From: Thalassotalea euphylliae
Lineage (GTDB): Bacteria > Pseudomonadota > Gammaproteobacteria > Enterobacterales > Alteromonadaceae
DNA length: 64,000 bases
Direction: 5' to 3'
NCBI RefSeq assembly: GCF_003390395.1
Contig: NZ_QUOV01000001.1
Coordinates: forward strand, 1,178,001-1,242,000
Shown here: piece after piece, positions 3,219 to 40,563 of the stretch
Numbering within the stretch: position 1 is the stretch's first letter
How the letters are laid out: every line of letters begins with the position of its first letter
The notes under the pieces: model-generated
The model's database searches: none
Told to the model about the DNA's origin: nothing
What the model saw: only the letters and a program-made list of their open reading frames with translations
Position numbers and translations under genes: made by a program

Positions 3219-3219
3219 G

Positions 3220-4672: not shown

Positions 4673-4677
4673 GGTTT

Positions 4678-6839: not shown

Positions 6840-7890
6840 GTTGAATTAACTCCCAGTCTACGGCTGTACCAGGCTCAATATCTTGCGTTGCTCGCATACC
6901 AATTATTTGGTCTAAATATTTCGGCGCTAAACCATAACCGGGTCGAATTCTACGTACATCTGAAGGCGTAATTTTCTGGCCTTTGGCAATCTCATTAACA
7001 AAATAAAGTGAACGGCGAAACTTCATACTTGCTTGTTCAACGGGTTTACGCTCATAACCCGCAGCGCCAATAGACTGATGGGCCGCGGTTGTTTCTTCCA
7101 CTAAACGAACCAATTCGTCGGGCTCAATAGAAAATTCGGAGTCAGGACCGTTTTGCGTACGATCTAGAATGAAGTGTTTTTCGATTAAACAGGCGCCTAA
7201 TGCAACAGCACTAACCGAGGCTACCGTGCCTAATGTGTGATCTGAGAGACCGGAAAGGACATTAAATCGCTTTGCGATATCGTTAATCGTGGCCAAATTT
7301 GCTTGCTCATATGGCGCAGGGTAGGCGCTAATACAATGCAGTACAACTAGTTCGTGACAGCCATTATCACGCGCTGTAGCAATGGCTTCTGCGATTTCTT
7401 GTTCGTTAGCCATCCCCGTTGAGATGATCATCGGCTTGCCTGTTTGTGCGACCCGCTTTATTAGAGGTAAATCGGTGACTTCAAATGACGCTATTTTGTA
7501 GGCTGGCGTATTTAGGCTTTCAAGCAAATCAACGGCTGTTTCATCAAATGGGGTTGAAAAAATAGTAATGCCGACTTCTTGAGCTTTGTTAAACAGTGCT
7601 TGATGCCATTCAAAAGGGGTGTGAGCCCATTCATATAAATCGTAAAGTTTATAGCCATCCCAAAGACCCCCTTCAATCTGAAAGTCTGGTTTGTCGCAGT
7701 CAATCGTCATCGTATCTGGTGTGTATGACTGTATTTTTATGGCGTCAGCACCGCAATGAGCAGCTTGCTCTATTGTTGCTAATGCGCTCGCCAGATCACC
7801 GTTATGGTTAGCAGAAAGCTCAGCAATAATATAGGGTTTGTGTTTTGGGCCAATCTTTCGGCCTGCGATTTCTATTTCACTGTTGGTCAT
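6832..7890 (-). CDS. pseI: Pseudaminic acid synthase (PseI/NeuB family), copy 1
   Basis: This is a full-length NeuB-family synthase of 352 residues. It condenses a 2,4-diacylamido-2,4,6-trideoxyhexose with phosphoenolpyruvate to a nine-carbon sugar acid. The N-terminal TIM-barrel starts with KPYIIAELSANHNGD and includes ADAIKIQSYTPDTMT. The stretch GLWDGYKLYDLYEWAHTP is characteristic of PseI rather than sialic acid NeuB. GLSDHTLG and IEKHF complete the barrel, and a C-terminal SAF (antifreeze-like) domain occupies about residues 290-350. It lies between the PIG-L deacetylase and a formyltransferase-like gene. A second, diverged copy lies at 31323-32363. Confidence 0.9.
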   Translation of the reverse strand: MTNSEIEIAGRKIGPKHKPYIIAELSANHNGDLASALATIEQAAHCGADAIKIQSYTPDTMTIDCDKPDFQIEGGLWDGYKLYDLYEWAHTPFEWHQALFNKAQEVGITIFSTPFDETAVDLLESLNTPAYKIASFEVTDLPLIKRVAQTGKPMIISTGMANEQEIAEAIATARDNGCHELVVLHCISAYPAPYEQANLATINDIAKRFNVLSGLSDHTLGTVASVSAVALGACLIEKHFILDRTQNGPDSEFSIEPDELVRLVEETTAAHQSIGAAGYERKPVEQASMKFRRSLYFVNEIAKGQKITPSDVRRIRPGYGLAPKYLDQIIGMRATQDIEPGTAVDWELIQHD

Positions 7891-7935
7891 TAGTAATCAG
7901 TAATTAGTAATTTTTAATTTTTGGGTAAGCCATGG

Positions 7936-8628
7936 CTACTTGGTTGAAGCTAGCGTTTTGGGGCTAAACGTTACCGTTGCGCTAAGCTGCTCTCCATCGA
8001 GCTTAGCTTGGCTAAAGGTTAATTGATAGTTGCCATGCTCAATAAAAGCACTTGGGTAACCATCAGCGTCTAGCATCCTTATTAAATCGTATATTTTATC
8101 GAGCGTTTGTTCACCATTGATATGGCTTTGCTCAGGTGTACGTCGCTTAAACTCGGTAACTTCACCTTGCTGAGGTATTGGTTTAGGTTCATTTTTGACA
8201 ATATTGGTAATCATTTCAAACGTTAACTGAGCGCTACGTTGAAAAATTTCAGTAGCACTACCTTTGAGAGACAACGGTTGTTTGGCGTAAATGGGGCCAG
8301 CATCAAACGTTTCTGTCATTTGTAGCGCGCTCAACATGGTATCTTGATGTCCGCGACTTATTAAATTTTGTAGCGGGCTGCCACCACGGCCATAAGGTAA
8401 ATCAGTCATGTGAAATGCCACGCAATTAAATTGGCTAATGATTGATTGTGGCACCAACCAGCTCCAATGTGGAAAGAAAATATACTTTGGTTTTATCGCC
8501 TCAAGATACGCGACGGTTAATTGTTTCGGCTCCGAAATTAAATGCCAGTTACCAGGCAGTGTTGCTTGATGTTGGTGAAACTGGGCGATGTTCCAAGGCT
8601 TAATCGTTGCAACGATATAATTAGTCAT
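7936..8628 (-). CDS. Formyltransferase-like protein of pseudaminic acid loci (A)
   Basis: This 230-residue single-domain formyltransferase homologue carries FHMTDLPYGRGGSPLQNLI around residues 72-90 and ETFDAGPIY around 106-114. These match the loop and Asp regions of Fmt-type enzymes. His73 and Asp109 are present, but the Asn two residues before the His is Ala71. I chose ATG 8628, inside the end of the upstream gene (8-base overlap). An upstream in-frame ATG at 8697 would add 23 residues of unrelated sequence and a long overlap. Proteins of this type often sit beside pseG and pseI in marine gammaproteobacteria, but their reaction is not settled to my knowledge. It could transfer a formyl or hydroxyacyl group to a 4- or 2-amino group. 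Confidence 0.7.
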   Translation of the reverse strand: MTNYIVATIKPWNIAQFHQHQATLPGNWHLISEPKQLTVAYLEAIKPKYIFFPHWSWLVPQSIISQFNCVAFHMTDLPYGRGGSPLQNLISRGHQDTMLSALQMTETFDAGPIYAKQPLSLKGSATEIFQRSAQLTFEMITNIVKNEPKPIPQQGEVTEFKRRTPEQSHINGEQTLDKIYDLIRMLDADGYPSAFIEHGNYQLTFSQAKLDGEQLSATVTFSPKTLASTK

Positions 8629-9262
8629 CTTTGTGAATCTCAAGTCTGAATTTCTGGCCGTTGTAGTAAAAAAATGCCGGATAGTTTTGGTTATCAACTG
8701 TTCTTAGTAATGGCATTAACTCATTTAGTGACAACCTTGGATCAAGCTCACTATCAAGGGGGGTTCTTCTAGGGTAGAAGCTCTCTTTACCTTGCTGTGG
8801 AGTGGGGCTTAGTTGTTCATACTGATCAACAAACCTAAGTGCCAGCCTAACGGATATCTCTCCTTGCATTGCTCGCCATTCTCGACAAAGCTCGTTGCCT
8901 GTCAATACAATGTTTTCTTGTAGCCATATATCACCACTATCAACTTCGGTGCTCGCTTCAATCAAAGAGACAGGAATGATATGTTGGCCGGCAATGATTT
9001 GCCAAGCCATCGGTGCAAATCCTTTACCTTGTGGTAAAGCACTTTCATGCACAACGAGGTTATATTTATTGCGAGCTAGTACATCTTCAATTACTAGCTG
9101 TGTGCACCCTAATAAAAAGCAAACATCACCCTTAGGAATATCGGCCTGATTACGATAAAGTGCCGCGGTTATGCCTCGTGCAATGAGTTCGTCCACTAGT
9201 TGTTCGGCATATACAAGGATCCAAGAGTTGTTATCTACTAATACGCTCACTTTATTGAACAC
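8621..9262 (-). CDS. Formyltransferase-like protein of pseudaminic acid loci (B)
   Basis: A 213-residue protein starting at GTG 9262, overlapping the end of pseG by 11 bases. The core contains VVHESALPQGKGFAPMAW (about 70-87) and STEVDSGDIW (about 104-113), the loop and Asp motifs of the formyltransferase fold. His72 and Asp108 are kept; the Asn expected two residues before the His is Val70. It is paralogous in plan to the next gene downstream (A), and the two overlap by 8 bases. Either they form a heteromeric enzyme or they act on two positions of one sugar. This is inferred from arrangement, with no direct evidence of the substrate. Confidence 0.65.
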   Translation of the reverse strand: MFNKVSVLVDNNSWILVYAEQLVDELIARGITAALYRNQADIPKGDVCFLLGCTQLVIEDVLARNKYNLVVHESALPQGKGFAPMAWQIIAGQHIIPVSLIEASTEVDSGDIWLQENIVLTGNELCREWRAMQGEISVRLALRFVDQYEQLSPTPQQGKESFYPRRTPLDSELDPRLSLNELMPLLRTVDNQNYPAFFYYNGQKFRLEIHKDD

Positions 9263-10433
9263 GGCTAAATACCTTATCTACAATTCTTTGACAGCCTTGC
9301 CCATCACAGACTTTAAGGCTGTTGTTTATCATCGATTCTAACTCGCTAACATGCGTTTGTATGCTGGGCAGCAGCTCAGTCACAACATGAGTGAGCTGAT
9401 TTTTCTGGTAGCTAAGGCATACATTTTCACTTGTTAAAGCCGCAGCAATATCATTTTGGTTGCTCGCCTGCACAATCAATATTGTCGGCAAACCAACGGC
9501 ACATCGCTCCCACGAGGTTGTGCCGGCGGCACCAATGGCTATATCTGCTGATAACATCAACTCACTAATATTACTGGGTGCTATATGTAAGGTCATTTCA
9601 TCATGCAGCTGACAAAACTCCATAACTTGCGCTATATGTTTAGCGCTTGTACCTATGATGACATCAATCAATCGGAAATTAGATGTTTTACCAAGCAAAG
9701 TTAGTGCCTGCAGTGTCAGGTTATCGGGATCAGTACCACCAAACATGATCAGGAGTCGAGTAGCTCCCTGCTGAATATGCAGGCGCTCTTTTCTCTGTGT
9801 GTAAATTTCTTGCTTGCTTACCCCTTTTGAGTACACAAGGTTGAATTCGTCCCTTAGCATGGCATAGTCAGTACCAAGCAATGTTTGGCTATGTGCTGGC
9901 GTTAGCTTTTTATAGCGAGATACTGGGCATAAAAATGTCTGATCTATCAGAAAGTCACACTCATGAGCTCTGTCAGCTATATCGTCAATGACAACTATTT
10001 TTCTGGTGATATTTCGAACTTGCTGGTGCCACCTAGCATCGATTCCATAATGGTCGGTAATGATAAAATCGAACCTTGACGAGACACTAATACAATCTGA
10101 TAGTTTTTTGTTTAATAGTTGGTTTTTTGCCAATGCAATAAACTCTTTGACATCATTTTCTTGAGTTTCGCCGAGCCATTCACTGTGTGCTAATTTTTCA
10201 GAGCTTTTTTTCGTTGATGCTCCATTTGACCGAGAGGTTGGTGCCGCCATCTGAACTAGATCAAACCCTGCATCCAATACGAGTTGGCTGATATTGCCTT
10301 CAGCCTGTCGGCAGAAAAAGTAGATATTTGCCCTCAGAGTTTTTTTGATGGCATTAGCTAATGTCAAGCACCGCATGATGTGACCTGTGCCAATAACCGT
10401 CGAAGAATCGGCTCGTATCGCAATATTAATCAT
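9252..10433 (-). CDS. pseG: UDP-2,4-diacetamido-2,4,6-trideoxy-altropyranose hydrolase (PseG)
   Basis: PseG removes UDP from the diacylamido-altrose nucleotide before the PseI condensation. The 393-residue protein opens with IAIRADSSTVIGTGHIMRCL, which contains the family motif G-x-GH-x-xR with catalytic His18. Later motifs of the GT-B-like fold are IMFGGTDPDN and IGAAGTTSWERCAVGLPTI. It is longer than the usual ~280-340 residues because of an insert after the first domain (about residues 60-120, rich in Ser/Lys/Glu). It lies between the class III aminotransferase and the formyltransferase-like genes. A second PseG domain occurs in the fusion at 32641-34329. Confidence 0.87.
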   Translation of the reverse strand: MINIAIRADSSTVIGTGHIMRCLTLANAIKKTLRANIYFFCRQAEGNISQLVLDAGFDLVQMAAPTSRSNGASTKKSSEKLAHSEWLGETQENDVKEFIALAKNQLLNKKLSDCISVSSRFDFIITDHYGIDARWHQQVRNITRKIVVIDDIADRAHECDFLIDQTFLCPVSRYKKLTPAHSQTLLGTDYAMLRDEFNLVYSKGVSKQEIYTQRKERLHIQQGATRLLIMFGGTDPDNLTLQALTLLGKTSNFRLIDVIIGTSAKHIAQVMEFCQLHDEMTLHIAPSNISELMLSADIAIGAAGTTSWERCAVGLPTILIVQASNQNDIAAALTSENVCLSYQKNQLTHVVTELLPSIQTHVSELESMINNSLKVCDGQGCQRIVDKVFSRVQ

Positions 10434-10453
10434 TGAGGCAAACCTGTGCTTGA

Positions 10454-11743
10454 CTATCTAACTTTAAACAGCGGTTCAAGTGGTTCGCATTGCAACTGTT
10501 CAATCACCGTTCGATTGTTTATTGCTGTATTTAGTATCGGTAGTACTTCTTCGTAGCAAGCCAGCAGGGTGGCGATATCTTCATTTGTGTGTGAATAACT
10601 TATATTGTGCGAGCCAAACGTTAAAATTCCTCGAGCGAGCATTTCCTGCATATATAGGGTTTTTATTTCAAAACTCGAATAGCCATTGCAATCTATTAGT
10701 TGTAGAAATGACCATGAGGGGTGCCCTGCCGTACTGGCAAACTGTTGGCAGTTATATTTAACAATTAGCTTGTCTAATTCAGTTAATAAGTATTGCCCTG
10801 TGCGCGCAAGTTGATCTGGTATATTGAGGTTATCAACTTTATCAAGTACCACTTTAGCAGCAGCTAATGACGCGGTTTCACCACCAAATGTGCCAGAGAA
10901 AAACACGTCTTCCATTAAGTCCATAATCTCTGCTTTACCAACAATAGCAGACAATGGAAAGCCATTAGCTAAGCCTTTTCCAAAGGTGGCGAGATCGGGT
11001 GTTATACCAAACAATTCCTGCGCACCGCCCTTAGCAAACCTACAGCCAGTTATGGTTTCATCAAACACGAATACGATATCATTAGCCTTGGCTAGAGTTT
11101 GCACTTCTGATAAATAACCGTCTTTAGGGTATTCAACGTTCATTGGCTCCATGATAATTGCAGCGATCTGTCCATGATATTGCTTTACTAAGCTTTTGAG
11201 TGCATCAATATCGTTAAATGGAAAACTTTTCGTTAATGCTTGAGTGGCTTCAGGTACGCCCAAATTTCGAGCCGTAGAACCAATATACCAATCCTGCCAG
11301 CCGTGATAACCACAAACCAACACCATGTCTTTACCTGTGAAGGCACGGGCTAGTCTAATTGCTGCCGAGGTCGCATCTGAGCCATTTTTCCCAAAACGCA
11401 CTTTTTCTGCACATGGGATAAGTTCGACAAGCTTTTCTGCTACTTCAACTTCCAACTTGTGTGGTAATGAAAAGCTCACACCCGTTTGAATTTGTTGATA
11501 AACTGCTTGGGTAACATCTTCATCAGCATAGCCGAGTGACACACACAGCAGGCCATTCATAAAGTCGATATATTCGTTGCCGTCGATATCCCAAACTCTC
11601 GCACCTTCACCTTTTTCTAGGTAAAGAGGTGCCGCACCTACTGGGAATTGTGTTTTACTTTTGCTAAAGGTTTGCGATCCAAGCGGAATGGTTTGCTCGG
11701 CTCTTTTTAACCATTGCTCAGATGATGGATATTGTCTGGTCAT
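10454..11743 (-). CDS. Class III aminotransferase (GSA aminomutase-like)
   Basis: The 429-residue PLP enzyme resembles glutamate-1-semialdehyde aminomutase and related sugar-cluster transaminases. Visible features are KNGSDATSAAIRLAR (phosphate-binding region), FVFDETITGCRF (cofactor-ring Asp) and TFGKGLANGFPLSAI, with the Schiff-base lysine. It differs from PseC (class DegT) at 38384. It is therefore not the 4-aminotransferase of the main pathway and may aminate another keto position or the side chain, or may make an acyl-group precursor. It sits 20 bases upstream of pseG and 6 bases after the cytidylyltransferase gene. The substrate is unknown. Confidence 0.8.
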   Translation of the reverse strand: MTRQYPSSEQWLKRAEQTIPLGSQTFSKSKTQFPVGAAPLYLEKGEGARVWDIDGNEYIDFMNGLLCVSLGYADEDVTQAVYQQIQTGVSFSLPHKLEVEVAEKLVELIPCAEKVRFGKNGSDATSAAIRLARAFTGKDMVLVCGYHGWQDWYIGSTARNLGVPEATQALTKSFPFNDIDALKSLVKQYHGQIAAIIMEPMNVEYPKDGYLSEVQTLAKANDIVFVFDETITGCRFAKGGAQELFGITPDLATFGKGLANGFPLSAIVGKAEIMDLMEDVFFSGTFGGETASLAAAKVVLDKVDNLNIPDQLARTGQYLLTELDKLIVKYNCQQFASTAGHPSWSFLQLIDCNGYSSFEIKTLYMQEMLARGILTFGSHNISYSHTNEDIATLLACYEEVLPILNTAINNRTVIEQLQCEPLEPLFKVR

Positions 11744-11749
11744 AGTAAA

Positions 11750-12565
11750 TTAATGCTTATTTTCTTGTGATTTAAGGGCGACACTTTGCTCTTGCTCAAT
11801 TGATTTTAAGTACCCTTCATTACGAATAATACCTTGATTAATCTTTGCTAGTTCAGGTTGTTCCACCAATAGTTGGTAGATTTGTTCGCTGTCAAAATAT
11901 TGTCCTTGTTGCCCTAGTGTCTGATAAATTTTTTCAATCAAGATGAAGTCACTTGGTTCATCAACCGTTAAGCGATAATGCGAGTAGTCAATTGTTGATG
12001 AGTAGTTGCCTTTTTTCTGTGCCAGAATGTTGCGAATAAAAGGAGTGACGTGTTCTAGCTCAGAGGGCTTTTCTGCTCTCTCCTTAGCTGTGATGAGTTG
12101 AACCATATTAAATACTTCAACATCAAATCCGTCAGGAAAAGTGGCAGGTTCAACATTTGAGGTGTAGTCATTGCCTTGTTCGATATGCATTTCAATAACT
12201 TGATCAATTATTTTTGCATCAGCTAGAGGACAGTCACCGGTTAATCGAACGATGATATCTGCTTGATAGTGCTTGGCTGCTTGGTAAAAGCGGTCAAGCA
12301 CATTGTTTAAGCTGCCTGTGTAGCATGAAATGTCTAGCTGCTGACAAAGCCTGACGATAGCCTGATCTTCTTTGTTGTCAGAGGTTGCTACAACTAATTG
12401 ATTGATGTGTTGGCAATTTGCAAGACGTTGAAGATGATGGGCAAGCATAGGCTTGCCAAGGATAGGCTTTAGCACTTTACCAGGGAGGCGGCTCGAACTT
12501 ATTCGGGCTTGCAAAATAGCAACAACCTTTGGCTTGCTATTTATCGGAGAGGTTTCGGTTTGCAT
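11750..12565 (-). CDS. SpsF-type cytidylyltransferase, probable PseF equivalent (copy 1)
   Basis: A 271-residue nucleotidyltransferase with VAILQARISSSRLPGKVL near residues 14-31, the signature of the CMP-KDO synthetase/SpsF family, and RLTGDCPLAD with the metal-binding Asp near the middle. In nonulosonate clusters such proteins replace canonical PseF (R-G-G-S-K-x-I type) and would make CMP-pseudaminic acid for the Maf transferase. The position beside the aminotransferase and pseG supports this. The tail after about residue 240 (Gln/Glu/Lys-rich) is an extension. A second family member lies at 30295-31083, matching the second PseI/PseG set. Confidence 0.75.
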   Translation of the reverse strand: MQTETSPINSKPKVVAILQARISSSRLPGKVLKPILGKPMLAHHLQRLANCQHINQLVVATSDNKEDQAIVRLCQQLDISCYTGSLNNVLDRFYQAAKHYQADIIVRLTGDCPLADAKIIDQVIEMHIEQGNDYTSNVEPATFPDGFDVEVFNMVQLITAKERAEKPSELEHVTPFIRNILAQKKGNYSSTIDYSHYRLTVDEPSDFILIEKIYQTLGQQGQYFDSEQIYQLLVEQPELAKINQGIIRNEGYLKSIEQEQSVALKSQENKH

Positions 12566-12688
12566 TTACTTACCTATTTTTCTATTAGGGGCGTTCTATC
12601 AAGGTCGTTTTATCAATGTTGCTTTAACAAAGCCATCTAATCCAAGTCGCTCTCTTAAAGGCGGAATACAGCTGAATTTAGGTGTTAT

Positions 12689-13615
12689 TTACTTAGTAAT
12701 TTGCCATAAACTCGGATTAATCAAGGCTTGTGCTTGTGAACTAAGTTCGCTTAACTTTTTTGTAAGCTCCTGTGTAGAAAGCGGGAGTTGTTTCGACATG
12801 TGATACGCCTCTACTATTTCGTCTAACTGCGCGTGTGAACAACAGCCAACAACTATTTGTTCAATAGTATTATCGTCAATTTTAGGATTCGCTTTAATTT
12901 GCCTTGCTAACATATCAAACAAGGCTAAGCATAATGTGAGCGGAGAGCAGGCGAGTGTTATCGCCAGCTGGTCGAATTTTTCAAGTGTGGCTTGATAAGG
13001 CTTAAAATATTGAGGCCGCTCAGTGGCAGGCATCAATAGCAAACCTTGTAAAAATGCGGAGCGACAATGAATTTTTACACCGTGTTTTTGGTAATCCTCA
13101 AAAAGCCTGTCTGAGACAAAACGCTGATCCAAAACGTTAGCAGGTACTTGCAATAGATCTAACTGATATTGCTTTTTTAACTGCTGCCACTGTTGTGGCG
13201 AGTAAAGCGAAGCACCAACACGATTAACAACTCCTTGCTGTTTCATTTCAGCTAATTCGCGATAGAAAGTCTTGCGTTTAGGGTGTAGAAGCAAGTCGTC
13301 TGCATGATGAAAAAGTACCGCTTCTAAGTGCTCAACATTGAGCAAATTTAAGCTGTTCTTAACCAGAGGAATAATGCTTTTAGTTTTGCTATCAAGCTTA
13401 GGGATTTTAGTGACAATACTAAACTGTCGACTGACTTCAAGCTCGCCAAGTACTTGCTCACTATTGCCATAGACACTCGCGCAATCGAGCACACTAATAC
13501 CCGCTCGATGAGCGCTTTTCAGTATTTCTTTTACTTGTAACTTATTAACTTGGCCAGCAGAGTTGCTGACGCCGTAATCTAATCCAAATTGTACTGTGCC
13601 TAAGGCTAGTTTCAT
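12689..13615 (-). CDS. Aldo/keto reductase family protein
   Basis: The 308-residue protein begins LALGTVQFGLDYGVSN and has ISVLDCASVYGNSEQVLGE, the AKR strand with Asp and the catalytic Tyr. Later come TKIPKL (Lys) and LFHHADDLL (His). The Asp-Tyr-Lys-His set of the AKR barrel is therefore visible. AKR homologues of this short type (about 300 residues) often sit beside SpsF-like genes in surface-sugar loci. It probably reduces a carbonyl on a sugar or side-chain intermediate with NADPH. A 123-bp gap separates it from the cytidylyltransferase downstream; it follows the small gene at 13654-13932 by 38 bases. Confidence 0.8.
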   Translation of the reverse strand: MKLALGTVQFGLDYGVSNSAGQVNKLQVKEILKSAHRAGISVLDCASVYGNSEQVLGELEVSRQFSIVTKIPKLDSKTKSIIPLVKNSLNLLNVEHLEAVLFHHADDLLLHPKRKTFYRELAEMKQQGVVNRVGASLYSPQQWQQLKKQYQLDLLQVPANVLDQRFVSDRLFEDYQKHGVKIHCRSAFLQGLLLMPATERPQYFKPYQATLEKFDQLAITLACSPLTLCLALFDMLARQIKANPKIDDNTIEQIVVGCCSHAQLDEIVEAYHMSKQLPLSTQELTKKLSELSSQAQALINPSLWQITK

Positions 13616-13653: not shown

Positions 13654-13932
13654 TTAAGGTGATTCATCAATATGTTGACGCAAAATTGCAGGCATTTCAT
13701 ATTGTAAAATATCTGCGAGGAATAATTTATCGCCTCTCTTATGGGCATCAATCATGACTTGAAAAAGCTCATTGAATACGCGGTTTCCTGTTAAAGAGTG
13801 AGCTGCGAGCAGTGCAGTTAATGCATCAATAAAATCAATATATAGGGTACTGGCTTCGCCTTCATACCCCAATCGAAAAGCGTTTGCGACCTGTTGCGCT
13901 TCTTTAGCTATTTGCTCTATTTGGCTTGCCAT
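13654..13932 (-). CDS. Small protein of unknown function, coupled to maf
   Basis: This 92-residue, largely helical and acidic protein overlaps the end of the maf gene by 16 bases, which suggests translational coupling. No family is recognised. It has no signal peptide, no membrane segment and no Cys. Hydrophobic heptad-like stretches (for example LYIDFIDALTALLAAH and FNELFQVMIDAH) suggest a helical bundle. From position it may be a chaperone or accessory subunit of the Maf glycosyltransferase, or an adaptor between flagellin and Maf. This is inference from gene order only. Confidence 0.65.
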   Translation of the reverse strand: MASQIEQIAKEAQQVANAFRLGYEGEASTLYIDFIDALTALLAAHSLTGNRVFNELFQVMIDAHKRGDKLFLADILQYEMPAILRQHIDESP

Positions 13933-15188
13933 AACGATGTTCCTGCAATTTGTGCCCCTTCTAGGCTACCGTTTAAAAATTTGATCTGGCTGTTTGCGTC
14001 TATATAACGCTCTAAGTCTCGCAGGTAACCTTTTAAATTAGGCATAGTCGCAACTTTTTCTCCATGACCGTTAAAGACCCAGTCATTAGCAAATTCAACA
14101 GCGAAATTGAGGGGGGTTTTACTTTCAGCTGATTTTTCTGGATTTGCATGACTTTTATTTTTAGTAAAAGCAAAATCAGCGCCAAGCAAAACAATAGATT
14201 TCCCCCCAATAAATGCTGCAAGATCAATCGCTGGGTGAATGACACTGCCCGCTGAAAACAAGGTAGGGCTATTTATTTGTGACTTGTAGGCTTGGTACAT
14301 CGGCGTGTTGCTATAGCTAAAGTAACGTTTGCCTTGCCATTGTTCAACAACATGTGTGGATATGCTTGGGAAGTAAACTAGGGCTGCCGCCGCAAGCTTA
14401 TTGTAGTCATCTTGATTAAACATGTTGTGTGCTAAAGCGTCAATTGAAACTACAATATCGGGCGTAATTCTATGTGCAAGTAGCGTTTTTACACTCGCAT
14501 CAACAGCGATAATAAATGGCTTATTTTCTGCTAACCAAGATAAATGGTTCTCTAGCGTTGGACCTGCTGCGGCAATATAAATTATGTCGCTCTTGGACTT
14601 GGGTAGTGCAGCAATAGACTTATCACTGTTTATAAAACTCAAATTGTTTTCAATGGTTTTTGCTACTTGAGGTAATGCCTGCTTTGATTCGATGTAGCTT
14701 TGATTAAGCTCCAAGAGAATGCGGTCCTTCAACGTCGCACATTCATCACTCGCAAGGGTGAGTTCAGCAGGGTTGGCACAAAACGGTGCATATACTTCAT
14801 TAATGTCATTATAGTGATGAAGTGTTATTTCTTTAGCATTGAGCCAGTCAGTATGATCAAGCGCATTCATTACATGGGCAAAAACACCAATGTTCAGCAC
14901 AATAATATGAATATTCTTTAAGTTTTTGTTTCTTAGCGCTAGTCTTGCTGTGTCACCTAACCCTGTGCCGTAAATAAAAGCAGATTCGGCTGTTGTGGGA
15001 ATACGACTGAGTTGTAATGCAGCCTCATGAGCGTGATCGTAGTTGGTGGTCAGCTGAATGTTATTAATTATTAGCGTATTCTGCTCTGACTCTACCGTTA
15101 GTGCTGAAAGGTCGGCACTTTCTATTGCTTGGTAAAGTTTGGGCCATCTCGCCTTGACTATATCTAAATTACTTTGCAAAAAGCTCAT
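13917..15188 (-). CDS. maf: Motility accessory factor (Maf/DUF115) flagellin glycosyltransferase
   Basis: The 423-residue protein has the DUF115 (MptE-like) core: IYIAAAGPTLENHLSWL near residues 204-219, FIIAVDASVKTLL, PDIVVSIDA near 243-251 and the later SIVLLGADFAF. Maf proteins are cytoplasmic transferases that attach nonulosonates such as pseudaminic or legionaminic acid to Ser/Thr of flagellin before export. The N-terminal ~190 residues are the usual variable region. It is the first gene of the minus-strand array, with a good ribosome site (AGGTGG about 5 bases before ATG 15188). It defines the array as a flagellin glycosylation operon. Only one Maf is visible, although two nonulosonate sets are present. 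Confidence 0.87.
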   Translation of the reverse strand: MSFLQSNLDIVKARWPKLYQAIESADLSALTVESEQNTLIINNIQLTTNYDHAHEAALQLSRIPTTAESAFIYGTGLGDTARLALRNKNLKNIHIIVLNIGVFAHVMNALDHTDWLNAKEITLHHYNDINEVYAPFCANPAELTLASDECATLKDRILLELNQSYIESKQALPQVAKTIENNLSFINSDKSIAALPKSKSDIIYIAAAGPTLENHLSWLAENKPFIIAVDASVKTLLAHRITPDIVVSIDALAHNMFNQDDYNKLAAAALVYFPSISTHVVEQWQGKRYFSYSNTPMYQAYKSQINSPTLFSAGSVIHPAIDLAAFIGGKSIVLLGADFAFTKNKSHANPEKSAESKTPLNFAVEFANDWVFNGHGEKVATMPNLKGYLRDLERYIDANSQIKFLNGSLEGAQIAGTSLWQAK

Positions 15189-30294: not shown

Positions 30295-31083
30295 CTAGGC
30301 TCTCTTTTGCTCTACATGGCGGTTAATCTCAGCAATTTCTGGATGAGCCAATAAGACTTTTTCTAGCGTTGGGTAGTCAAAGTCGGTTTGGTAGTCCATT
30401 AACTGAAAAACTCGGTCAATGGCGGTAAAGTCGTCTGCCTCATCTAGAGTCAAACGAAAATGTGTGAGATCTCGCTCGGCATACAACACTCGATTGTTTA
30501 TCTTTTGAACCTTGCCCATGCCTAGCGTAACGTGTTCTCTGTCGGCCGCTGACGTTGCAGTTAAGTGTGTTTTCTCTAGCAACTCAAAGCCAAAGATGCA
30601 GGCATCAAGGCCCCTTGGGTAACCCGAATGAGGACCTAAACTCACCATGTCATAGTGGCCCGTGTTAAATTCACTAACGGACTGCTGCACAAGCTTTACA
30701 TCAACCAAAGGGCAATCGCTGGTAATTCTCATCACTGCGGTTTCTTTTGTCGCGCCATGAGCTTTGGCAGCCAAGTAATAACGACAGAGTACATCATCTG
30801 TACTCCCTTTAAAATAGCCAACGCCAAGCTTTTGACAAAGCGCTATAATAGGGGCTTCGCTACCATCATTGGTGGTGGCAACAATAATATGCTGCTTTAA
30901 CGGTATTAAACGCTCAATAAGCCACTGAAGCATCGGCTTATTGGCCATTTTCATCATCACTTTTTCGGGTAGCCGAGTTGATGTCATTCGCGCTTGAATA
31001 ATTATTTGCAGTGATTGCAAAGCGTTATTCTCGTCCAATGATTCTGGTGTTTGAGAGCAAGGCAAAGAGTTATAATCTGGCAT
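30295..31083 (-). CDS. SpsF-type cytidylyltransferase (copy 2)
   Basis: A 262-residue SpsF/CMP-KDO-synthetase-like protein with IIQARMTSTRLPEKVM near residues 27-42 and MRITSDCPLVD with the metal Asp. The first ~24 residues are a non-conserved leader, and internal starts are possible. It differs clearly from the copy at 11750. It faces away from the second PseI gene with a 240-bp divergent region between them. This suggests that it makes the CMP-activated form of the second nonulosonate. It could also act on a different acidic sugar. Confidence 0.75.
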   Translation of the reverse strand: MPDYNSLPCSQTPESLDENNALQSLQIIIQARMTSTRLPEKVMMKMANKPMLQWLIERLIPLKQHIIVATTNDGSEAPIIALCQKLGVGYFKGSTDDVLCRYYLAAKAHGATKETAVMRITSDCPLVDVKLVQQSVSEFNTGHYDMVSLGPHSGYPRGLDACIFGFELLEKTHLTATSAADREHVTLGMGKVQKINNRVLYAERDLTHFRLTLDEADDFTAIDRVFQLMDYQTDFDYPTLEKVLLAHPEIAEINRHVEQKRA

Positions 31084-31322
31084 TATTCGTTTTAATTAGC
31101 GTGAAAATCCTTAAGTCTTGCAGACTTTACACTAACTGTGCCTTGGTCACTAGCAGCTTAAGTCGAACTTTATAGGTTTGCGCATGATTCTTGCTGTACT
31201 TTGTTTGTTGTCTTTACAGCGAATGGATTCCATTAGTTGTGTGAAACATAGTTCTATGAAAAAATTAGTTTTCTTGCTAATACCAGCAAAGTTAGTAAGC
31301 GCTGTTGAGTTTAGGAGTTGTT

Positions 31323-32363
31323 GTGACATTTAATGCTGAAATCACCATAGCGGGTCGCCCCATTGGCCCCAATCAGCCAACATATATTATTGCAGAAATG
31401 TCTGCCAACCATGGACAAGACTTAAACAAGGCTAAAGAGCTGGTACATGCGGCTAAAGAGGCAGGGGCTGATGCGATAAAGTTACAAACATACACGGCTG
31501 ATACGCTGACACTTGATTGCAAGCTTCCTCACTTTGAAGCTCAGGGGGCATGGCAAGGTCAATATTTACATGATCTATACAAAGGCGCTCATATGCCTTG
31601 GGACTTTCATGCACCACTATTTGAACTTGCAAACAAACTTGGTCTTACGTGCTTTTCTTCGCCGTTTGACAACAGCGCTGTCGATTTACTGGAATCGTTG
31701 CATGCTCCGGCTTATAAAATCGCTTCTCCAGAATTGATAGACCATCAATTAATTGAATATACAGCGAAAACAGGTAAGCCCATGATTATGTCAACCGGAG
31801 GCGCAACGCTTAATGAAATCACAGAGGCGGTAGCTGTTGCTCAACGTGCAGGTGTTAAGGAGTTGTGCTTGTTAAAATGCACAAGTAGCTACCCAGCGCC
31901 ACCGGAGAGTATTAATCTAAGAACGATCAATCATCTAGCTGACTCATTTGGTTGTCCTGTTGGTCTTTCTGATCACACATTAGGCAATAGTGTGCCGATT
32001 GCTTCTGTTGCATGCGGCGCTCAGGTCATTGAGAAACACTTTGTGATGAGTAAAGATGATGATACGGCTGATAGCTTTTTTTCCATGACCCCGGATGAGT
32101 TATCTGAATTGGTGGTTGGTGTAAGGCAAGTGGAAAAAGCACTGGGTAAAATTCATTACCCTATTGCATCATCACCGCATCGGCGTTGTTTATACGTAAC
32201 AAAAAACGTTAGAGCAGGCGAGTGCTTAACCGCAGACAATGTCGCTAACCTACGACCAGGCGGCGGCAGCATGATGCCAAAAGACATTCATCATGCGATA
32301 GGGCGCAGCGCGGTCAGAGATTTAGCGCGTGGCACTCAGTTAGACTGGCAAGACTTTATATAA
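31323..32363 (+). CDS. Nonulosonate synthase (PseI/NeuB family), copy 2
   Basis: A 346-residue synthase with PTYIIAEMSANHGQDLNKA, ADAIKLQTYTADTLT, LHDLYKGAHMPWDFH, CTSSYPAPPES, GLSDHTLG, IEKHFVM and a C-terminal SAF domain (about 285-345). The GLWDG of copy 1 is GAWQG here, so it is diverged and may take a different N-acylated hexose. The start is GTG 31323 with AGGAG 5 bases before it; an upstream TTG at 31305 would place the Shine-Dalgarno inside the gene. The ACP and PseG-GNAT fusion follow, which defines a second nonulosonate module. Confidence 0.87.
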   Translation: MTFNAEITIAGRPIGPNQPTYIIAEMSANHGQDLNKAKELVHAAKEAGADAIKLQTYTADTLTLDCKLPHFEAQGAWQGQYLHDLYKGAHMPWDFHAPLFELANKLGLTCFSSPFDNSAVDLLESLHAPAYKIASPELIDHQLIEYTAKTGKPMIMSTGGATLNEITEAVAVAQRAGVKELCLLKCTSSYPAPPESINLRTINHLADSFGCPVGLSDHTLGNSVPIASVACGAQVIEKHFVMSKDDDTADSFFSMTPDELSELVVGVRQVEKALGKIHYPIASSPHRRCLYVTKNVRAGECLTADNVANLRPGGGSMMPKDIHHAIGRSAVRDLARGTQLDWQDFI

Positions 32364-32392: not shown

Positions 32393-32644
32393 GTGATATC
32401 TACACTATCATTACAATCATTTTTTATTGATTTTCTCGGCGAGCGCGGCATAGACAGTTCGCTAGATGAGATAGAGAGCTTTAACTTTATGGCATCAGGC
32501 CTATTGGACTCCTTTGAACTATTAACCATGTTTATTCAGTTAGAAATGAGTTTTGGTATTAAATTAACGCCGGAAGAAATCAGTGACGAAGCTAATGCTG
32601 ATGTCTGTGGTTTAGTGAAAACGCTATTGGCTAAGGCTCAATGA
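32393..32644 (+). CDS. Acyl carrier protein
   Basis: An 83-residue acidic helical protein with GLLDSFELL, where Ser40 is the 4'-phosphopantetheine site, and LEMSFGIKLTPEEI in helix III. These mark a stand-alone ACP. I chose GTG 32393 because AAGGG lies 7 bases upstream; a TTG at 32372 would add seven residues. Its stop overlaps the PseG-GNAT start (ATGA), and the acyl ligase comes next. The likely job is to carry an acyl group, activated by the ligase, to the GNAT domain that acylates the amino sugar. A dedicated ACP in a nonulosonate cluster is unusual. Confidence 0.8.
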   Translation: MISTLSLQSFFIDFLGERGIDSSLDEIESFNFMASGLLDSFELLTMFIQLEMSFGIKLTPEEISDEANADVCGLVKTLLAKAQ

Positions 32645-34329
32645 TAAACTTTGCAATCAGAGTGGCTAGCCAGCAAGGCATCGGCCACCTAATGCGAATG
32701 AAGTGGTTAGCCCATTCACTTACTCAGCGCGACTGTCAGGTTATTTTTATTCTAGATGAGTGTGAACAAGAAAGTTGGCAGCACATTAAAGATGTTGCTG
32801 AGCAGATATATTTTATCGACACACAACAAAGTGACTATAGCCAACATTCGGATGCTTTTTTTAGTAATGAAATACTAGCAAAGCATCAATGTCAGCAGCT
32901 GATCATTGACAGCTATCAGTTGGGTATTGAATACGAGCAGGCAATCGACAAGCAAGTCAATATTACTGTTTTTGATGACTTAGCTCGAGAGCATTTTTGC
33001 CATCAGCTATTTGATATGAAGTGGTGTGGTCAGCGCACCGATGAACGTTATCAAGGCAAGTTAGCTGATGAATGCCAACGATATTTAGGGCCTACATTTG
33101 CTTTATTAGCGCCAGATTATCGCTCACATAACCTCATCTCTAAAAGTCGCGGTGTTAGCAGTGAGCAAACTTTCGACCAGACATTCAAGCAAAATGCTAG
33201 CAAAAGTCATTGCCTGTTGATTTCACTGGGTGGTGGTGGCGATTTATCGCTGGTAGAGCCATTTATTTGTCATTTGTTAAAGCGACAATCTGCGTTAAAA
33301 ATTAATTTGGTTGTTGGCCCTCAAGTCATTAATCTGCAGTCTGTTGAGCGTATTGCTGCTGAACATACGAATCTAACGTTAATCAATCAACCCAAGTCGC
33401 TACTTCCCTATTACGAAGAGGCTGATCTGTTCGTTGGGGCGCTCGGTACGTCTTTGTATGAACTGGCTGCTTGTCAGTTACCTGCGATAACTTTTAGCAT
33501 CGCTAAAAATCAAGAAAATGATATTTTGGCGCTTGAAGATCTCGGCCACTATTTTCATTTAGATAGCTATAACGCTGCGCAAGGTGAAAAGCTGGCCGCT
33601 CTTACTCAGTTGGTGTTAGAGCAATTACCCAGAGTGAAAACACTTCGAAAATCGGCAAAATTGACCTTAGATGGCTGCGGAGCTGAAAGATTAGCTGATA
33701 TCTTGCTAGCGCCAAAGTCCGCACAACAAGAGTTGGCGCGCGATCATGCCAAGCAATTGCAAGCTCAAGTAGAAAATACTAATGAACAAGCAGCTACAGA
33801 TTGTGGTAAGGAGTATTTGACTGAAAAAATTGCGATCAGGCAGGTTGAAGATCAAGATATTAATCGATACTTGAATGCCCGAAACCTACCTGTTAATGCC
33901 CAGCGTATGACAATTAATGAGGAAATACCGCGACTGTCTCATTATCATTGGTGGTTTACCACTGAGCGCGTTTCCTATTTATTGTCTGAAAACGGCCAAG
34001 ACAGGCTGTATATTTGGGATAGTAAACAACAAATTAATGGGCAGGAATACTTATACGGTGGCTGGTTTACCGTGGCTGGAGAAGTGCCGTTTAATTTGGC
34101 AATGCTGGCATTAAAGTGGCAGTTATCTCGCAGCAGGGCTGAGAGCACGGCAACTTGGTTGGCCGTTATTCATAAACAGAACAAGTTTGTGAACCTACTT
34201 AATCAGTATATGGGATTTGAAGAGACCACCTGCGAGCGAGCGATAGCGGCAACAAAAGTACTATTTCCTTGCGCAACAACAACACAATTTAACTATGTTA
34301 GCCTTGCCTGTAAGGATATTCGTCTTTGA
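32641..34329 (+). CDS. PseG-like hydrolase fused to a GNAT-like acyltransferase
   Basis: The 562-residue protein joins two functions that are usually separate. Residues 1 to ~360 are PseG-like: INFAIRVASQQGIGHLMRM with the GH motif (His16), ISLGGGGDLS, and GALGTSLYELAACQLPAIT in the nucleotide-binding half. After a Gln/Ala-rich linker (~360-390), residues ~395-555 resemble a GNAT domain (KIAIRQVEDQDINRYLNAR, WLAVIHKQNKFVNLLNQ, GFEE). It would N-acylate UDP-4-amino-sugar (PseH step) and release UDP (PseG step). Next to an ACP and an acyl ligase, the GNAT domain may use an acyl-ACP or acyl-CoA rather than acetyl-CoA. The GNAT assignment is weaker than the PseG one. Confidence 0.75.
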   Translation: MINFAIRVASQQGIGHLMRMKWLAHSLTQRDCQVIFILDECEQESWQHIKDVAEQIYFIDTQQSDYSQHSDAFFSNEILAKHQCQQLIIDSYQLGIEYEQAIDKQVNITVFDDLAREHFCHQLFDMKWCGQRTDERYQGKLADECQRYLGPTFALLAPDYRSHNLISKSRGVSSEQTFDQTFKQNASKSHCLLISLGGGGDLSLVEPFICHLLKRQSALKINLVVGPQVINLQSVERIAAEHTNLTLINQPKSLLPYYEEADLFVGALGTSLYELAACQLPAITFSIAKNQENDILALEDLGHYFHLDSYNAAQGEKLAALTQLVLEQLPRVKTLRKSAKLTLDGCGAERLADILLAPKSAQQELARDHAKQLQAQVENTNEQAATDCGKEYLTEKIAIRQVEDQDINRYLNARNLPVNAQRMTINEEIPRLSHYHWWFTTERVSYLLSENGQDRLYIWDSKQQINGQEYLYGGWFTVAGEVPFNLAMLALKWQLSRSRAESTATWLAVIHKQNKFVNLLNQYMGFEETTCERAIAATKVLFPCATTTQFNYVSLACKDIRL

Positions 34330-35852
34330 ATACTATTTATCAGTTAGTTAATCAACATCGACTAAACACCCCGCAGAAAACCGCAATCACGTACCAAGAC
34401 CAAACCAGAAGTTATCAATCCTTGCTAGAGGACGTCGATGCTTTTGCTAATGGTTTGCTTTCAATTGGGGTAAGGAGAGGTAGCAAGCTTGCATTGTTTT
34501 GTGGCAACAATAATGAGTTTGTCATTACACTGTTAGCAGTTGCTAAATTGGGGGCCGCGATAGCGCCACTGCCACTGACATTGAAGGGGAAAGCTTTAGC
34601 GACAGCACTAACAACAATTGACTGCGACTACGTTATTGCTTGGCAACATATTAGCAAGCTATTGCTTTCTCAGTCGCTAATCTCAAGCAAGCATTTAGTG
34701 ACGATTGGCAGTAAAGCGGCAAACGAGCATAGCTTTACTGAACTAATGGAAAGCGACATAAAGCCTCTTTTGGGTAATGATGAGGTATCTGCTGATGACG
34801 ATTTTATTTATACGTTGACTTCTGGTTCGACAGGTGCACCAAAACCTATCGTATTTAGTCAACAAACGAAGATAAATCGTGCGTTTAGAGCGACGGTTGA
34901 TTATTACCAGCTAAGCGCTGAGGATGTCGTTCTAGTGGCTACGCCGATGTATCACTCTTTAGCCCAGCGCTCAGTGTTAATGCCGCTTATGCTTGGCGCA
35001 AGCGCAGTGCTTCTGCCAAAATTTTCTGTGCCTGCTTGGTTATTAGCTGTAGAGCAACAACAAGTATCCTTTCTTTTTGCTGTTGCCAGTCAGTTAACGG
35101 CTTTATTACCTGAGTTGGACAAAGCAAAGCTAAGCTCTTTGCGAGTGATTGTTTCATCGTCAGCAACGCTATCAGCCGAAGACAAACGATTGCTGCTTGA
35201 TAAGTTAGATTGCCAATTTCATGAGTGTTACGGTGCGTCGGAGCTTGGTGTTGTCACTGATTTTGATGTTACAGGAGAAAATCAACCACTTACCAGTGTT
35301 GGTAAAGCGCTGCCTTTCGTTGAGCTTAAAGTGATTGATGAGCAGCGAAAAGAGTTGCCTGCGGGTCAGGTAGGGGAAATTGTGTGCCGCTCTTCAACTT
35401 GTTTCAAAGGGTATTACAATCTTCCTCAGCAAACTGCAGAAAGTTTGGACGAGCAAGGTTACTTTTATACTGGTGATTTAGGTTATCTTGATGAGGCTGG
35501 GTACTTATACTATATGGGCAGGAAAAAAGAAGTTATCTCTTCTGGCGGTATAAACGTTTATCCAAGCGACATAGAATCAGTTATCAAAACTCACCCTTTG
35601 GTTAGTGAGTGTGTAGCGTTCGGTGTTCCCGATAAAAAGTTCGGGGAGATGATTAAAGTGGTTTTTGAAACGCTAGATGAAACGATGTGCATTGACGAGA
35701 TGGAACTTCGCAAGCTTTGTTTTGAGCAACTAACCGACTATCAGCAACCTAAGTATATTCTTCAGGTTGAACGCTTAGAGCGAAATAAATTAGGTAAGTT
35801 ATTGAGAAATAATATTAAATTAGCGTACCAAACACCAGGAATTGAGCTTTAA
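34326..35852 (+). CDS. Acyl-activating AMP-dependent synthetase/ligase
   Basis: A 508-residue ANL-superfamily enzyme. Core motifs are visible: TLTSGSTGAPKP (P-loop), YGASELG (A5), YFYTGDLGYLDEAGY with the ribose-binding Asp, GRKKEVISSGGINVYP (hinge) and a C-terminal NKLGKLLR with the adenylation Lys. It would activate a carboxylic acid as acyl-AMP and load CoA or the ACP at 32393. The start is TTG 34326, supported by AAGGA about 9 bases upstream, and overlaps the preceding stop by 4 bases. The acid used cannot be named from sequence. Confidence 0.87.
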   Translation: MNTIYQLVNQHRLNTPQKTAITYQDQTRSYQSLLEDVDAFANGLLSIGVRRGSKLALFCGNNNEFVITLLAVAKLGAAIAPLPLTLKGKALATALTTIDCDYVIAWQHISKLLLSQSLISSKHLVTIGSKAANEHSFTELMESDIKPLLGNDEVSADDDFIYTLTSGSTGAPKPIVFSQQTKINRAFRATVDYYQLSAEDVVLVATPMYHSLAQRSVLMPLMLGASAVLLPKFSVPAWLLAVEQQQVSFLFAVASQLTALLPELDKAKLSSLRVIVSSSATLSAEDKRLLLDKLDCQFHECYGASELGVVTDFDVTGENQPLTSVGKALPFVELKVIDEQRKELPAGQVGEIVCRSSTCFKGYYNLPQQTAESLDEQGYFYTGDLGYLDEAGYLYYMGRKKEVISSGGINVYPSDIESVIKTHPLVSECVAFGVPDKKFGEMIKVVFETLDETMCIDEMELRKLCFEQLTDYQQPKYILQVERLERNKLGKLLRNNIKLAYQTPGIEL

Positions 35853-36974
35853 ATGATTCATGAGCTAATAGATCGTTTTTTACATAATGATGAACAAAAG
35901 TATATCTTCGGTACGACCTCTGAAGCAAAAGCCTTAGTTCAGCTTTGTCGTCAATGTAACATCAAACTTACTGGCATTATCGATAACTTTTATCCTCATT
36001 CAGACTTTGCTGGGTTGCCTTGTCAAAAATTAGCAGATGTTTCGCCCAACTCTCTTGTGCTATCCGCGGTAACCAATAGCAGGCCTATTGAGGTTGCAAA
36101 GTTACTTACTGACAACGATTTTGAACACATTGATTATTATAGCTTTTTCCGTTTTTCTGGGTTGTCATGCCCTAAGATTGAGTTTTGGCATGGGGCAAAA
36201 GCACATTGGCAAGCTAATCTAACTCGCTACCAAACAGTAAAAAACCTCCTTGAAGATGAGCAGTCAAAAGAAACTTTTGATGCCGTCGTCGCGTTCAGAA
36301 ACTCCTATGATTTGGCTAACATGAAAGGCTTTACATTTGATATTAGTAATATGTATATGGAGTCTTTTATTTTACCATTTCGTGAGCATGGTGTGTTCTT
36401 TGATTTAGGAGCATTTGATGGCACGGATACGCGTAGGTTTTTACAACGATGTCAAACGGGCGAAAGCTACTTATTTGAGCCAATTCCTGAACAAGTAAGC
36501 AAGCTTGATAAGTTTGCCGGTGACAATGAACGAATACATCTCGTACCTGTTGCTGTAGGAGAGAATACTCAAACGGTTAGGTTTTGTGTAGGCGGCACGT
36601 CTTCAAAGGTACTTGATTTGGATAAACAAACGGCAAGTGAGGAATCTAGAGAAGCACAAGAGGAGCTTAAGGGAATAGATGCCTTGAATGGCACGGTTGA
36701 AGTTAATCAAATCAGTCTTGATGATTTTTACCGTAAGCACAGTATTATCCCAGAGTACGTCAAAATGGATGTAGAGGGTGCTGAACAATCCGTTATTCGA
36801 GGGATGAATAAATTACTTGTTGAGCATAAGCCTAAGTTGGCGGTAAGTGTTTATCACAGGGTTGAAGATATTATTGATATCCCGCTAATGATCAAACGTG
36901 CGAATCCTGATTATAAGTTTTATTTACGCCATTACACACAAGGCTACAGTGAAACCGTGCTATTTGCTGTCTAA
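35853..36974 (+). CDS. FkbM-family methyltransferase (2) with N-terminal Rossmann-like part
   Basis: The 373-residue protein starts with a ~110-residue Rossmann-like segment (YIFGTTSEAKALVQLC, GIIDNF) often seen in sugar-cluster proteins. The FkbM methyltransferase follows: FFDLGAFDGTDTRRFL, YLFEPIPEQV and EYVKMDVEGAEQSVIRGM. It probably methylates the second nonulosonate, its acyl group or its precursor. It starts directly after the ligase stop and ends the plus-strand part of this module, facing the Gfo/Idh gene. Confidence 0.82.
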   Translation: MIHELIDRFLHNDEQKYIFGTTSEAKALVQLCRQCNIKLTGIIDNFYPHSDFAGLPCQKLADVSPNSLVLSAVTNSRPIEVAKLLTDNDFEHIDYYSFFRFSGLSCPKIEFWHGAKAHWQANLTRYQTVKNLLEDEQSKETFDAVVAFRNSYDLANMKGFTFDISNMYMESFILPFREHGVFFDLGAFDGTDTRRFLQRCQTGESYLFEPIPEQVSKLDKFAGDNERIHLVPVAVGENTQTVRFCVGGTSSKVLDLDKQTASEESREAQEELKGIDALNGTVEVNQISLDDFYRKHSIIPEYVKMDVEGAEQSVIRGMNKLLVEHKPKLAVSVYHRVEDIIDIPLMIKRANPDYKFYLRHYTQGYSETVLFAV

Positions 36975-37040: not shown

Positions 37041-37080
37041 TTAGCTGCCAGCCTAGTTTATTAGCTGCCAGCCTAGTTTA
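37041..37080. repeat. Perfect 20-bp tandem duplication at a stop codon
   Basis: Two identical copies of TTAGCTGCCAGCCTAGTTTA at 37041-37060 and 37061-37080. The second copy contains the end of the Gfo/Idh gene including its stop codon, so the duplication adds a spare stop downstream. It looks like a recent slippage event. Confidence 0.9.
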
Positions 37081-38230
37081 CTTGATGCTTAGCGATATGC
37101 TCCCACTCACCTGAAGTATCTGATGCTTGTGCAGCAGCAAATAGTGCTAGGCCGTGAGTTGCATGGTCTAAGCCATAGACGTAGGGAGAGTCATATGGTT
37201 CATGCCGTTTGAATGCTAACAAACTATCGGCAATATCGGCATAAAGGTTGGCAAATGCTTCTACAAAACCTGTTGGGTGTCCTGGTTTCATGCGATTGTA
37301 ACGGAGCTCACTCACAACTAAGCACTTACTCGCACGATCAATGATTTTTCGGGTACCATCGTTATAGCTAATGTCTAATTCATCTGGGTTAAGCTGATAC
37401 CAGCTTGCACTGCCGAGTTCACCATATACTCTGACCTGTAGACCATTTCTGTGACCTATCGCGGTTTTCGACATCCACATGCTGCCCTTAATGTCTTTTG
37501 GATATTTAAGTAACATGTTTACGTCATCAACGAGCTTGTCGTATTGCGAGTGGTTGGCGAACTGAGCAACAGTGGCGATTGGTTCGTGGCCGATAAGTAG
37601 GCTGGAAAGGTGGTGTAAATGAACGCCAAGGTCTAAACAGATCGTCGGAACTTCTTCATCATGTAAGCGCCAAGCTTGAGGTTGTGCTACTTTACCTGCA
37701 ATATCCGGAGGTCTGCGAAACCCCTCTTGTGGCATTTCTAAGTGAATTTTCTGTATTTTACCCAACTCGCCTTTTGCAATACGTTGCCGTAACTCGCGAA
37801 CCATGGGGTAACCACTGTAATTATAGGTCACAGCTAGAAACTGCTTCGAAGAATCGTAAAATTTACGCAGCTTTGCTGCCTCTTTCGGGCCACAAACGAG
37901 TGATTTCTCACAAATCACATTGGCGCCAGCTTTAAGCAATACTTCGAGCATTGCCAAATGATCGGGTGTTGGTGTTAGTAAAACAAATGCATCAACTCTG
38001 TCTTGTTCGTTTTCAATTAATACTTGCCAATCGTTATAGGTACGCTCAGAGCTCACTCCCCATTGTATTGCTGTTGCTTGATTGCGGTCAGCATCTCGAC
38101 AAAAAGCACCAGCCACCACTTGAAAACGGTTATCCATTTGGCTGGCACAAAAATGCACATAACCAACAGCGGAAGTTTCACCACCGCCGATAAAAGCAAG
38201 CTGAAGTGGTGTAGTTGGAGAGCTTGTCAT
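37073..38230 (-). CDS. Gfo/Idh/MocA-family oxidoreductase
   Basis: A 385-residue NAD(P)-dependent oxidoreductase. The N-terminal Rossmann fold begins LQLAFIGGGETSAVGY; CEKSLV holds the family Glu-Lys. CLDLGVHLHHLSSLL gives the Asp and His of the active site in the C-terminal domain. Relatives oxidise or reduce a sugar hydroxyl/carbonyl or act on sugar acids. It is near pseB/pseC but is 153 bases away from pseC on the same strand, so co-transcription is possible. No substrate can be read. The stop lies in a 20-bp tandem duplication. Confidence 0.82.
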   Translation of the reverse strand: MTSSPTTPLQLAFIGGGETSAVGYVHFCASQMDNRFQVVAGAFCRDADRNQATAIQWGVSSERTYNDWQVLIENEQDRVDAFVLLTPTPDHLAMLEVLLKAGANVICEKSLVCGPKEAAKLRKFYDSSKQFLAVTYNYSGYPMVRELRQRIAKGELGKIQKIHLEMPQEGFRRPPDIAGKVAQPQAWRLHDEEVPTICLDLGVHLHHLSSLLIGHEPIATVAQFANHSQYDKLVDDVNMLLKYPKDIKGSMWMSKTAIGHRNGLQVRVYGELGSASWYQLNPDELDISYNDGTRKIIDRASKCLVVSELRYNRMKPGHPTGFVEAFANLYADIADSLLAFKRHEPYDSPYVYGLDHATHGLALFAAAQASDTSGEWEHIAKHQVN

Positions 38231-38383
38231 CCTATTTTAATTCCTGTTTTAATTCTTTTTATATCTCAACAAAAGTGAGTCGTGATAGTTGAAATTGCAA
38301 TTTACAAGATTTAGTAAGCGCAAGGGATTTTGTATAAAATGCTTAGTATAAAGCGCTCAATCTAAAGTAGTCAGCCAACACAA
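38231..38383. other. Gap between pseC and the Gfo/Idh gene
   Basis: 153 bp of AT-rich sequence on the minus-strand path. I see no clear hairpin or promoter; run-through from pseC is possible. Confidence 0.4.

Positions 38384-40563
<2,180 letters not shown>

Follow-up and report, generated by a model that had tools for sequence, protein, structure and literature searches.

A candidate acyl carrier protein-dependent route for N-acylation of pseudaminic acid in Thalassotalea euphylliae

A dedicated acyl carrier protein (ACP), a PseG-GNAT fusion protein and an ANL-superfamily acyl ligase lie together in a pseudaminic acid (Pse) cluster of Thalassotalea euphylliae, where they appear to form a module for attaching an acid to the nascent sugar. 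The window analysed here is a stretch of 64,000 nucleotides (contig NZ_QUOV01000001.1, positions 1,178,001 to 1,242,000) from a host genome consisting of a single 4.36-Mb contig. Judged from sequence, a dedicated N-acylation route through the carrier, the ligase and the GNAT domain is the most likely mechanism, and one in which we place moderate confidence. The original prediction had put these three genes and that for the synthase PseI in one overlapping operon; 4-base overlaps between ACP and fusion and between fusion and ligase, and the conservation of the operon, confirm this. The acyl-carrier route that it proposed fits the conserved operon, an invariant serine in the ACP, a genome in which no PseH reaches the cut-off, and a degenerate coenzyme A (CoA) loop; the loading, the transfer from the ACP and the acid itself we infer. 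To call the system undescribed was too strong, since an ACP with an AMP-dependent synthetase has been published for pse islands of Aeromonas (group II, PMC7874193) and an ACP with CaiC for flagellin islands of Enterobacteriaceae (PMC4875605).

In the proposed pathway, PseB and PseC, assigned by family, would produce uridine diphosphate (UDP)-4-amino-4,6-dideoxy-AltNAc. The ligase would adenylate a small carboxylic acid and load it onto the phosphopantetheine at Ser40 of the ACP, whereupon the GNAT half of the fusion, using this acyl-ACP in place of acetyl-CoA, would acylate the 4-amino group that becomes N7 in Pse. Once acylated, the sugar would lose its UDP through the fused PseG half; PseI and a cytidylyltransferase would complete a cytidine monophosphate-Pse variant destined for flagellin or some other surface glycan. 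A Gfo/Idh oxidoreductase, joined in this strain by an FkbM methyltransferase, might provide or modify the acid or, less probably, the sugar. The features are as follows.

30295..31083, minus: cytidylyltransferase-like protein, likely in the PseF role (PF02348, 83.3 bits)
31305..32363, plus: PseI, pseudaminic acid synthase (TIGR03586, 438.7 bits, cut-off 340.25; GTG start possible at 31323)
32393..32644, plus: dedicated ACP, 83 residues from GTG, by homologue alignment
32510..32512, plus: Ser40 codon of the ACP, phosphopantetheine attachment site predicted from alignment
32641..33790 (end approximate), plus: PseG-like UDP-sugar hydrolase domain of the fusion
33796..34329, plus: GNAT domain of the fusion, proposed N-acyltransferase with acyl-ACP as donor
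34075..34092, plus: AGEVPF loop standing in for the CoA pyrophosphate loop, beta4/alpha3 interval
34326..35852, plus: ANL-superfamily acyl ligase (PF00501, 230.5 bits; PF13193, 44 bits)
35853..36974, plus: FkbM-type methyltransferase, optional, possible tailoring enzyme (TIGR01444, 84.9 bits)
37073..38230, minus: Gfo/Idh/MocA oxidoreductase, conserved module partner (PF01408/PF22725)
38384..39541, minus: PseC aminotransferase (TIGR03588, 547.8 bits, cut-off 423.5)
39538..40557, minus: PseB dehydratase (TIGR03589, 557.9 bits, cut-off 407.75)

The plus strand thus reads PseI, ACP, fusion (32641-34329), ligase and FkbM methyltransferase, and the minus strand from 37073 to 40557 carries PseB, PseC and Gfo/Idh. 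PseB, PseC and PseI all exceed their NCBIfam equivalog cut-offs; in the NCBIfam scan the cytidylyltransferase-like protein had no match to the PseF equivalog model. A sigma-54 activator-like protein and then FliF lie downstream.

The fusion protein, its carrier and its ligase

The PseG half of the fusion falls just short of its NCBIfam cut-off (146.9 bits against 153.55), and the GNAT half matches no GNAT or PseH model, TIGR03585 included at E<=0.001. Structure prediction and search place a GNAT fold in this domain, PseH and FdhC being two of its structural matches; the domain was folded alone because a search with the whole fusion was informative for the PseG half only. Across the genome no PseH exceeds the TIGR03585 cut-off of 93.1, the best scores elsewhere being 38.8 and 24.2 bits.

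GNAT enzymes bind the CoA pyrophosphate at the loop joining beta4 and alpha3. The window fusion reads A-G-E-V-P-F there and does not show the glycine-bearing CoA pyrophosphate loop of PseH. At the loop-glycine position, set by a fixed offset from the WQL motif, the 78 distinct family members have proline (27), asparagine (22), serine (15), glycine (8) or one of six other residues (once each), and none of the 78 has the strict Q/RxxGxG/A motif. PseH proteins of the order retain glycine at this position, often behind a basic residue (for example RGTGS), and canonical PseH of the order likewise lacks the strict second G/A. The homologue P0002, from a record named Thalassotalea euphylliae (same genus), is 81% identical to the window fusion; when the GNAT domain was sought in 299 genomes of the phylum, it was found in the genome of the window only (1/299).

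The D39-S40-F41 attachment motif of the ACP is invariant in the window protein and its 38 homologues (39/39), and Ser40 aligns with the DS motif of one solved ACP. Since 38 homologues share the attachment site, we rejected the idea that the ACP is an artefactual open reading frame (ORF). At E<=0.01, PF00550 recognises 32 of the 39 family members but misses the window protein. DltC is a weak match, and a protein search with the ACP gave two matches from six candidates; by Pfam, the genome encodes one other PP-binding protein. The window ligase has the AMP-binding domains and catalytic motifs of ANL acyl ligases, and in its family motifs A3, A5, A7 and A10 occur in 39 of 39 members and A8 in 35.

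Conservation and companion genes

A single-sequence scan of genome contigs gave no match and was repeated with alignment A1 (31/47 proteins). A fusion-derived pattern search of GTDB species genomes found 36 loci: 33 in Pseudoalteromonas and one each in Colwellia, Marinomonas and a proteobacterial metagenome-assembled genome. With two from a separate genome search these make 38 distinct loci, recruited by the fusion and not by the ACP; L011, L012 and L014 duplicate L017, L023 and L041 and were counted once, while L008 and L009, whose alignments (query 2-355 and 4-387) are confined to the PseG part, were excluded. ACP, ligase and Gfo/Idh lie within 5.6 kb of the fusion at all 38, and PseI, PseB and PseC are present at 37; most of these loci are in one genus, so they are not independent. 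The ACP directly adjoins the fusion at 36 of them, and the two genes overlap by at most 26 bases or are separated by at most 5, counting from longest-ORF starts, except at L013 and L040.

The Gfo/Idh oxidoreductase accompanies the fusion in five of five fusion stretches and in none of the 98 other stretches fetched in the survey below (above 80 bits, within the stretch), which led us to reject it, within those limits, as a general pse gene. Its wider family is large (3346 matches, 120 listed). At E<=1e-90, relatives occur in three genomes besides its own among 369 of the class (L183, L184 and L185). At two of these three distant places, L183 and L184, an FkbM protein adjoins the Gfo/Idh relative, followed by an ATP-grasp protein and a DegT aminotransferase; these FkbM proteins are 29% and 28% identical to that of the window over nearly the full length (E 3e-46 and 5e-42). 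At L183 the four genes are consecutive (7552-12062) and read as an amino-sugar cluster, and L185 has no FkbM, ATP-grasp or DegT neighbour beside its Gfo/Idh. The setting at L183 and L184 suggests amide formation on an amino sugar. Some ATP-grasp enzymes couple acids directly to amines, which, taken with this setting, weakly suggests that Gfo/Idh with FkbM supplies or trims an acid; by analogy, ACP, ligase and GNAT might do here the job of the ATP-grasp protein there. FkbM itself is rejected as a core part, a gene more than 40% identical to that of the window being present at only 3 of the 38 distinct loci.

Loop loss and carrier proteins across pse clusters

PseI exceeds its cut-off in 99 of 247 genomes of the order, and stretches around PseI or PseH were fetched; 32 are centred on PseH and 66 on PseI, and they span the 99 PseI genomes apart from those of L011 and L012. 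Those in which PseI occurs together with a detectable GNAT, 55 stretches, were sorted by loop state. The window stands outside the 55, as do L010, L013 and L014 (found through the fusion, not the PseI survey), and L104 and L087 (stretch without PseI). The loop was called lost from the loop alignment, a single column being unclean (several kept loops have A there, and the lost loop of L147 has G). Among the 22 loop-lost GNATs, 20 stand-alone and two of the fusion type, 21 have an ACP within 3.5 kb and all 22 an ANL ligase within 4.5 kb; the corresponding counts for the 33 loop-kept GNATs, of which the rows L126, L146, L163, L164 and L166 may be unrelated GNATs, are 8 and 7. L109 is the sole loop-lost case without an ACP, with no carrier-like frame in the gap before its ligase. 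Beside its ACP the stand-alone loop-lost GNAT of L107 has LuxC, LuxE, an AMP-binding protein and a FabG-like short-chain dehydrogenase/reductase (SDR) by Pfam, a set matching the one described from Aeromonas group II (PMC7874193). On a tree of 60 GNATs built with the loop columns removed, loop loss requires one change and ACP presence three, so several independent losses were rejected.

The survey and tree support ACP use, short of proof. We propose, more tentatively than for the window itself, that pse clusters of the order hold a class of carrier-protein-dependent GNAT sugar N-acyltransferases marked by the degenerate CoA loop, of which the Thalassotalea/Pseudoalteromonas branch is fused to PseG. 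There, Gfo/Idh and the optional FkbM would yield a hydroxy or aldonic acid bearing an O-methyl group, which the ligase would pass by way of the ACP to N7 of Pse. The parts are of known kinds; what is new is their combination, its conservation with Gfo/Idh, and a loop mark common to other ACP-linked PseH-type GNATs.

Several observations weigh against ACP-dependent transfer. Loop loss arose once on the tree, leaving just one independent pair, so the 21 of 22 are not independent replication and a Fisher p-value on these counts is not valid; the branch leading to the GNAT domain of the fusion is very long; and the eight loop-kept GNATs with a nearby ACP mean that ACP use and loop loss are not identical. 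The window ACP scores 14.0 bits to PF00550, below the curated cut-off of 20.8, a single phosphopantetheinyl transferase (PF01648) was found in the genome, and the closest solved structures to the ligase are acyl-CoA ligases. Finally, a second cluster of the window encodes a GNAT (294-869) that, at 38.8 bits, falls short of the PseH cut-off; the same precursor could be acetylated by this enzyme.

A PGxGL loop is retained in the PseH-type GNATs of L089 and L093-L096, although an ACP lies at <=0.5 kb and an ANL ligase at <=1.3 kb. Either they use CoA and the ACP has another purpose, or they use the ACP and have retained the loop.

Alternatives and known systems

It is rather unlikely that the ligase makes an acyl-CoA for the GNAT to use, with the ACP serving biosynthesis or brief holding of the acid. 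FdhC, whose solved structure contains CoA and a 3-hydroxybutanoyl sugar, provides a precedent, but the degenerate loop in the fusion family, and an ACP immediately beside the fusion at 36 of 38 loci, speak against CoA as donor.

We also doubt a reading in which the GNAT is a diverged PseH with ordinary acetyltransferase activity, while ACP and ligase either acylate another position (O-acyl or 8-aminoacyl) or build a lipid-like substituent of the kind suggested for Aeromonas group II islands. The ten operon-region proteins scanned with Pfam (28-41 kb) include no LuxE, LuxC or 3-oxoacyl-ACP reductase and no second acyltransferase that we recognised, other loci not having been searched, and the genome lacks a PseH above cut-off. 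In its favour, ACP/AMP-ligase sets of flagellin islands have been interpreted as fatty-acid or liposugar genes (PMC7874193, PMC4875605), and Campylobacter jejuni Pse bears 8-N-acetylglutamine and di-O-methylglyceroyl as well as propionyl substituents (PMC3068675).

That Gfo/Idh acts on the sugar, for instance in C8 epimerisation with an aldo/keto reductase, while the ACP route still acylates N4, is improbable: such a reductase is matched in 8 of the 38 locus stretches, and Acinetobacter baumannii makes 8-epi-Pse with EpaA, a CTP-transferase/aldo-keto reductase fusion, and the SDR EpaB (PMC12053666), but the other 30 stretches retain Gfo/Idh without a reductase match, and the Gfo/Idh relatives at L183-L185 have no PseI match nearby.

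The second nonulosonate cluster of the window (294-13615, minus) encodes a PseI and a PseG that clear their cut-offs (512.9 and 286.3 bits, respectively), with a cytidylyltransferase-like protein, a class-III aminotransferase, an aldo/keto reductase, a PIG-L deacetylase, a WbuX-type amidotransferase, the GNAT mentioned above and two formyltransferase-like ORFs (7936-8697 and 8621-9262, minus) that overlap by 77 bases and each carry Formyl_trans_N. At 11750-13615 (minus) the cytidylyltransferase-like gene adjoins that of the aldo/keto reductase, the two domain kinds fused in EpaA. The window holds no second PseB or PseC, and two Pse-type products may share one pair. At 13917-15188 (minus) lies a Maf/MptE-like protein (PF01973, PF20157), a candidate flagellin nonulosonate transferase.

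The proposed ACP-dependent route shares parts with several known systems. DltA and DltC, the D-alanine carrier system, also pair an ANL ligase with a small acid and a short stand-alone carrier protein, which the ligase charges, but the acceptor is teichoic acid, reached through a membrane acyltransferase, whereas here a GNAT would N-acylate a nucleotide sugar. With the canonical Pse5Ac7Ac pathway (PseB-C-H-G-I-F, Campylobacter/Helicobacter) the window shares PseB, PseC, a PseG-like protein and PseI, with the GNAT presumably at the PseH step; its replacement for PseH, however, is fused to PseG, has a degenerate CoA loop and comes with its own ACP and ligase. Aeromonas group II islands likewise combine ACP and AMP-dependent synthetase with pse genes, there beside pseH, but also contain 3-oxoacyl-ACP reductase, LuxE and LuxC, where the window has the PseG fusion and Gfo/Idh, and their authors propose a liposugar, not N7 acylation (PMC7874193). 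Enterobacteriaceae flagellin islands are described with ACP, CaiC, FabG, LuxE and LuxC (PMC4875605). PseG/PseH chimeras, noted for A. caviae Sch3N (as cited in PMC7874193) and seen at L101-L103 and L116, also join hydrolase and GNAT in a single chain; these four loci keep the loop G-x-A and have no ACP or ANL match in the fetched stretch.

Pse acylated at N7 with 3-hydroxybutanoyl is reported from Shigella boydii type 7 and A. baumannii K93 (PMC3628348, PMC6586298). Shewanella oneidensis flagellin carries a 274-Da nonulosonate with one N-acetyl group and an attached O-methylated moiety of 236-264 Da; its sfmABCDE cluster, like the window, includes a methyltransferase gene, but has the ATP-grasp gene sfmE and no ACP among the five genes described (PMC3765264). 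For C. jejuni Cj1307/Cj1308 our literature search yielded annotation only ('putative acyl carrier protein'), and the portions of the open-licence literature that it covered contain no biochemical characterisation of ACP-dependent Pse acylation or of acyl transfer from an ACP to Pse.

If correct, the proposed route would be one way in which bacteria attach acids other than acetate to nonulosonates. Loop loss with an adjacent ACP and ANL ligase would then serve as a sequence mark for predicting such sugars from genomes, and some published flagellin islands would have their 'fatty-acid genes' reinterpreted as N-acylation modules.

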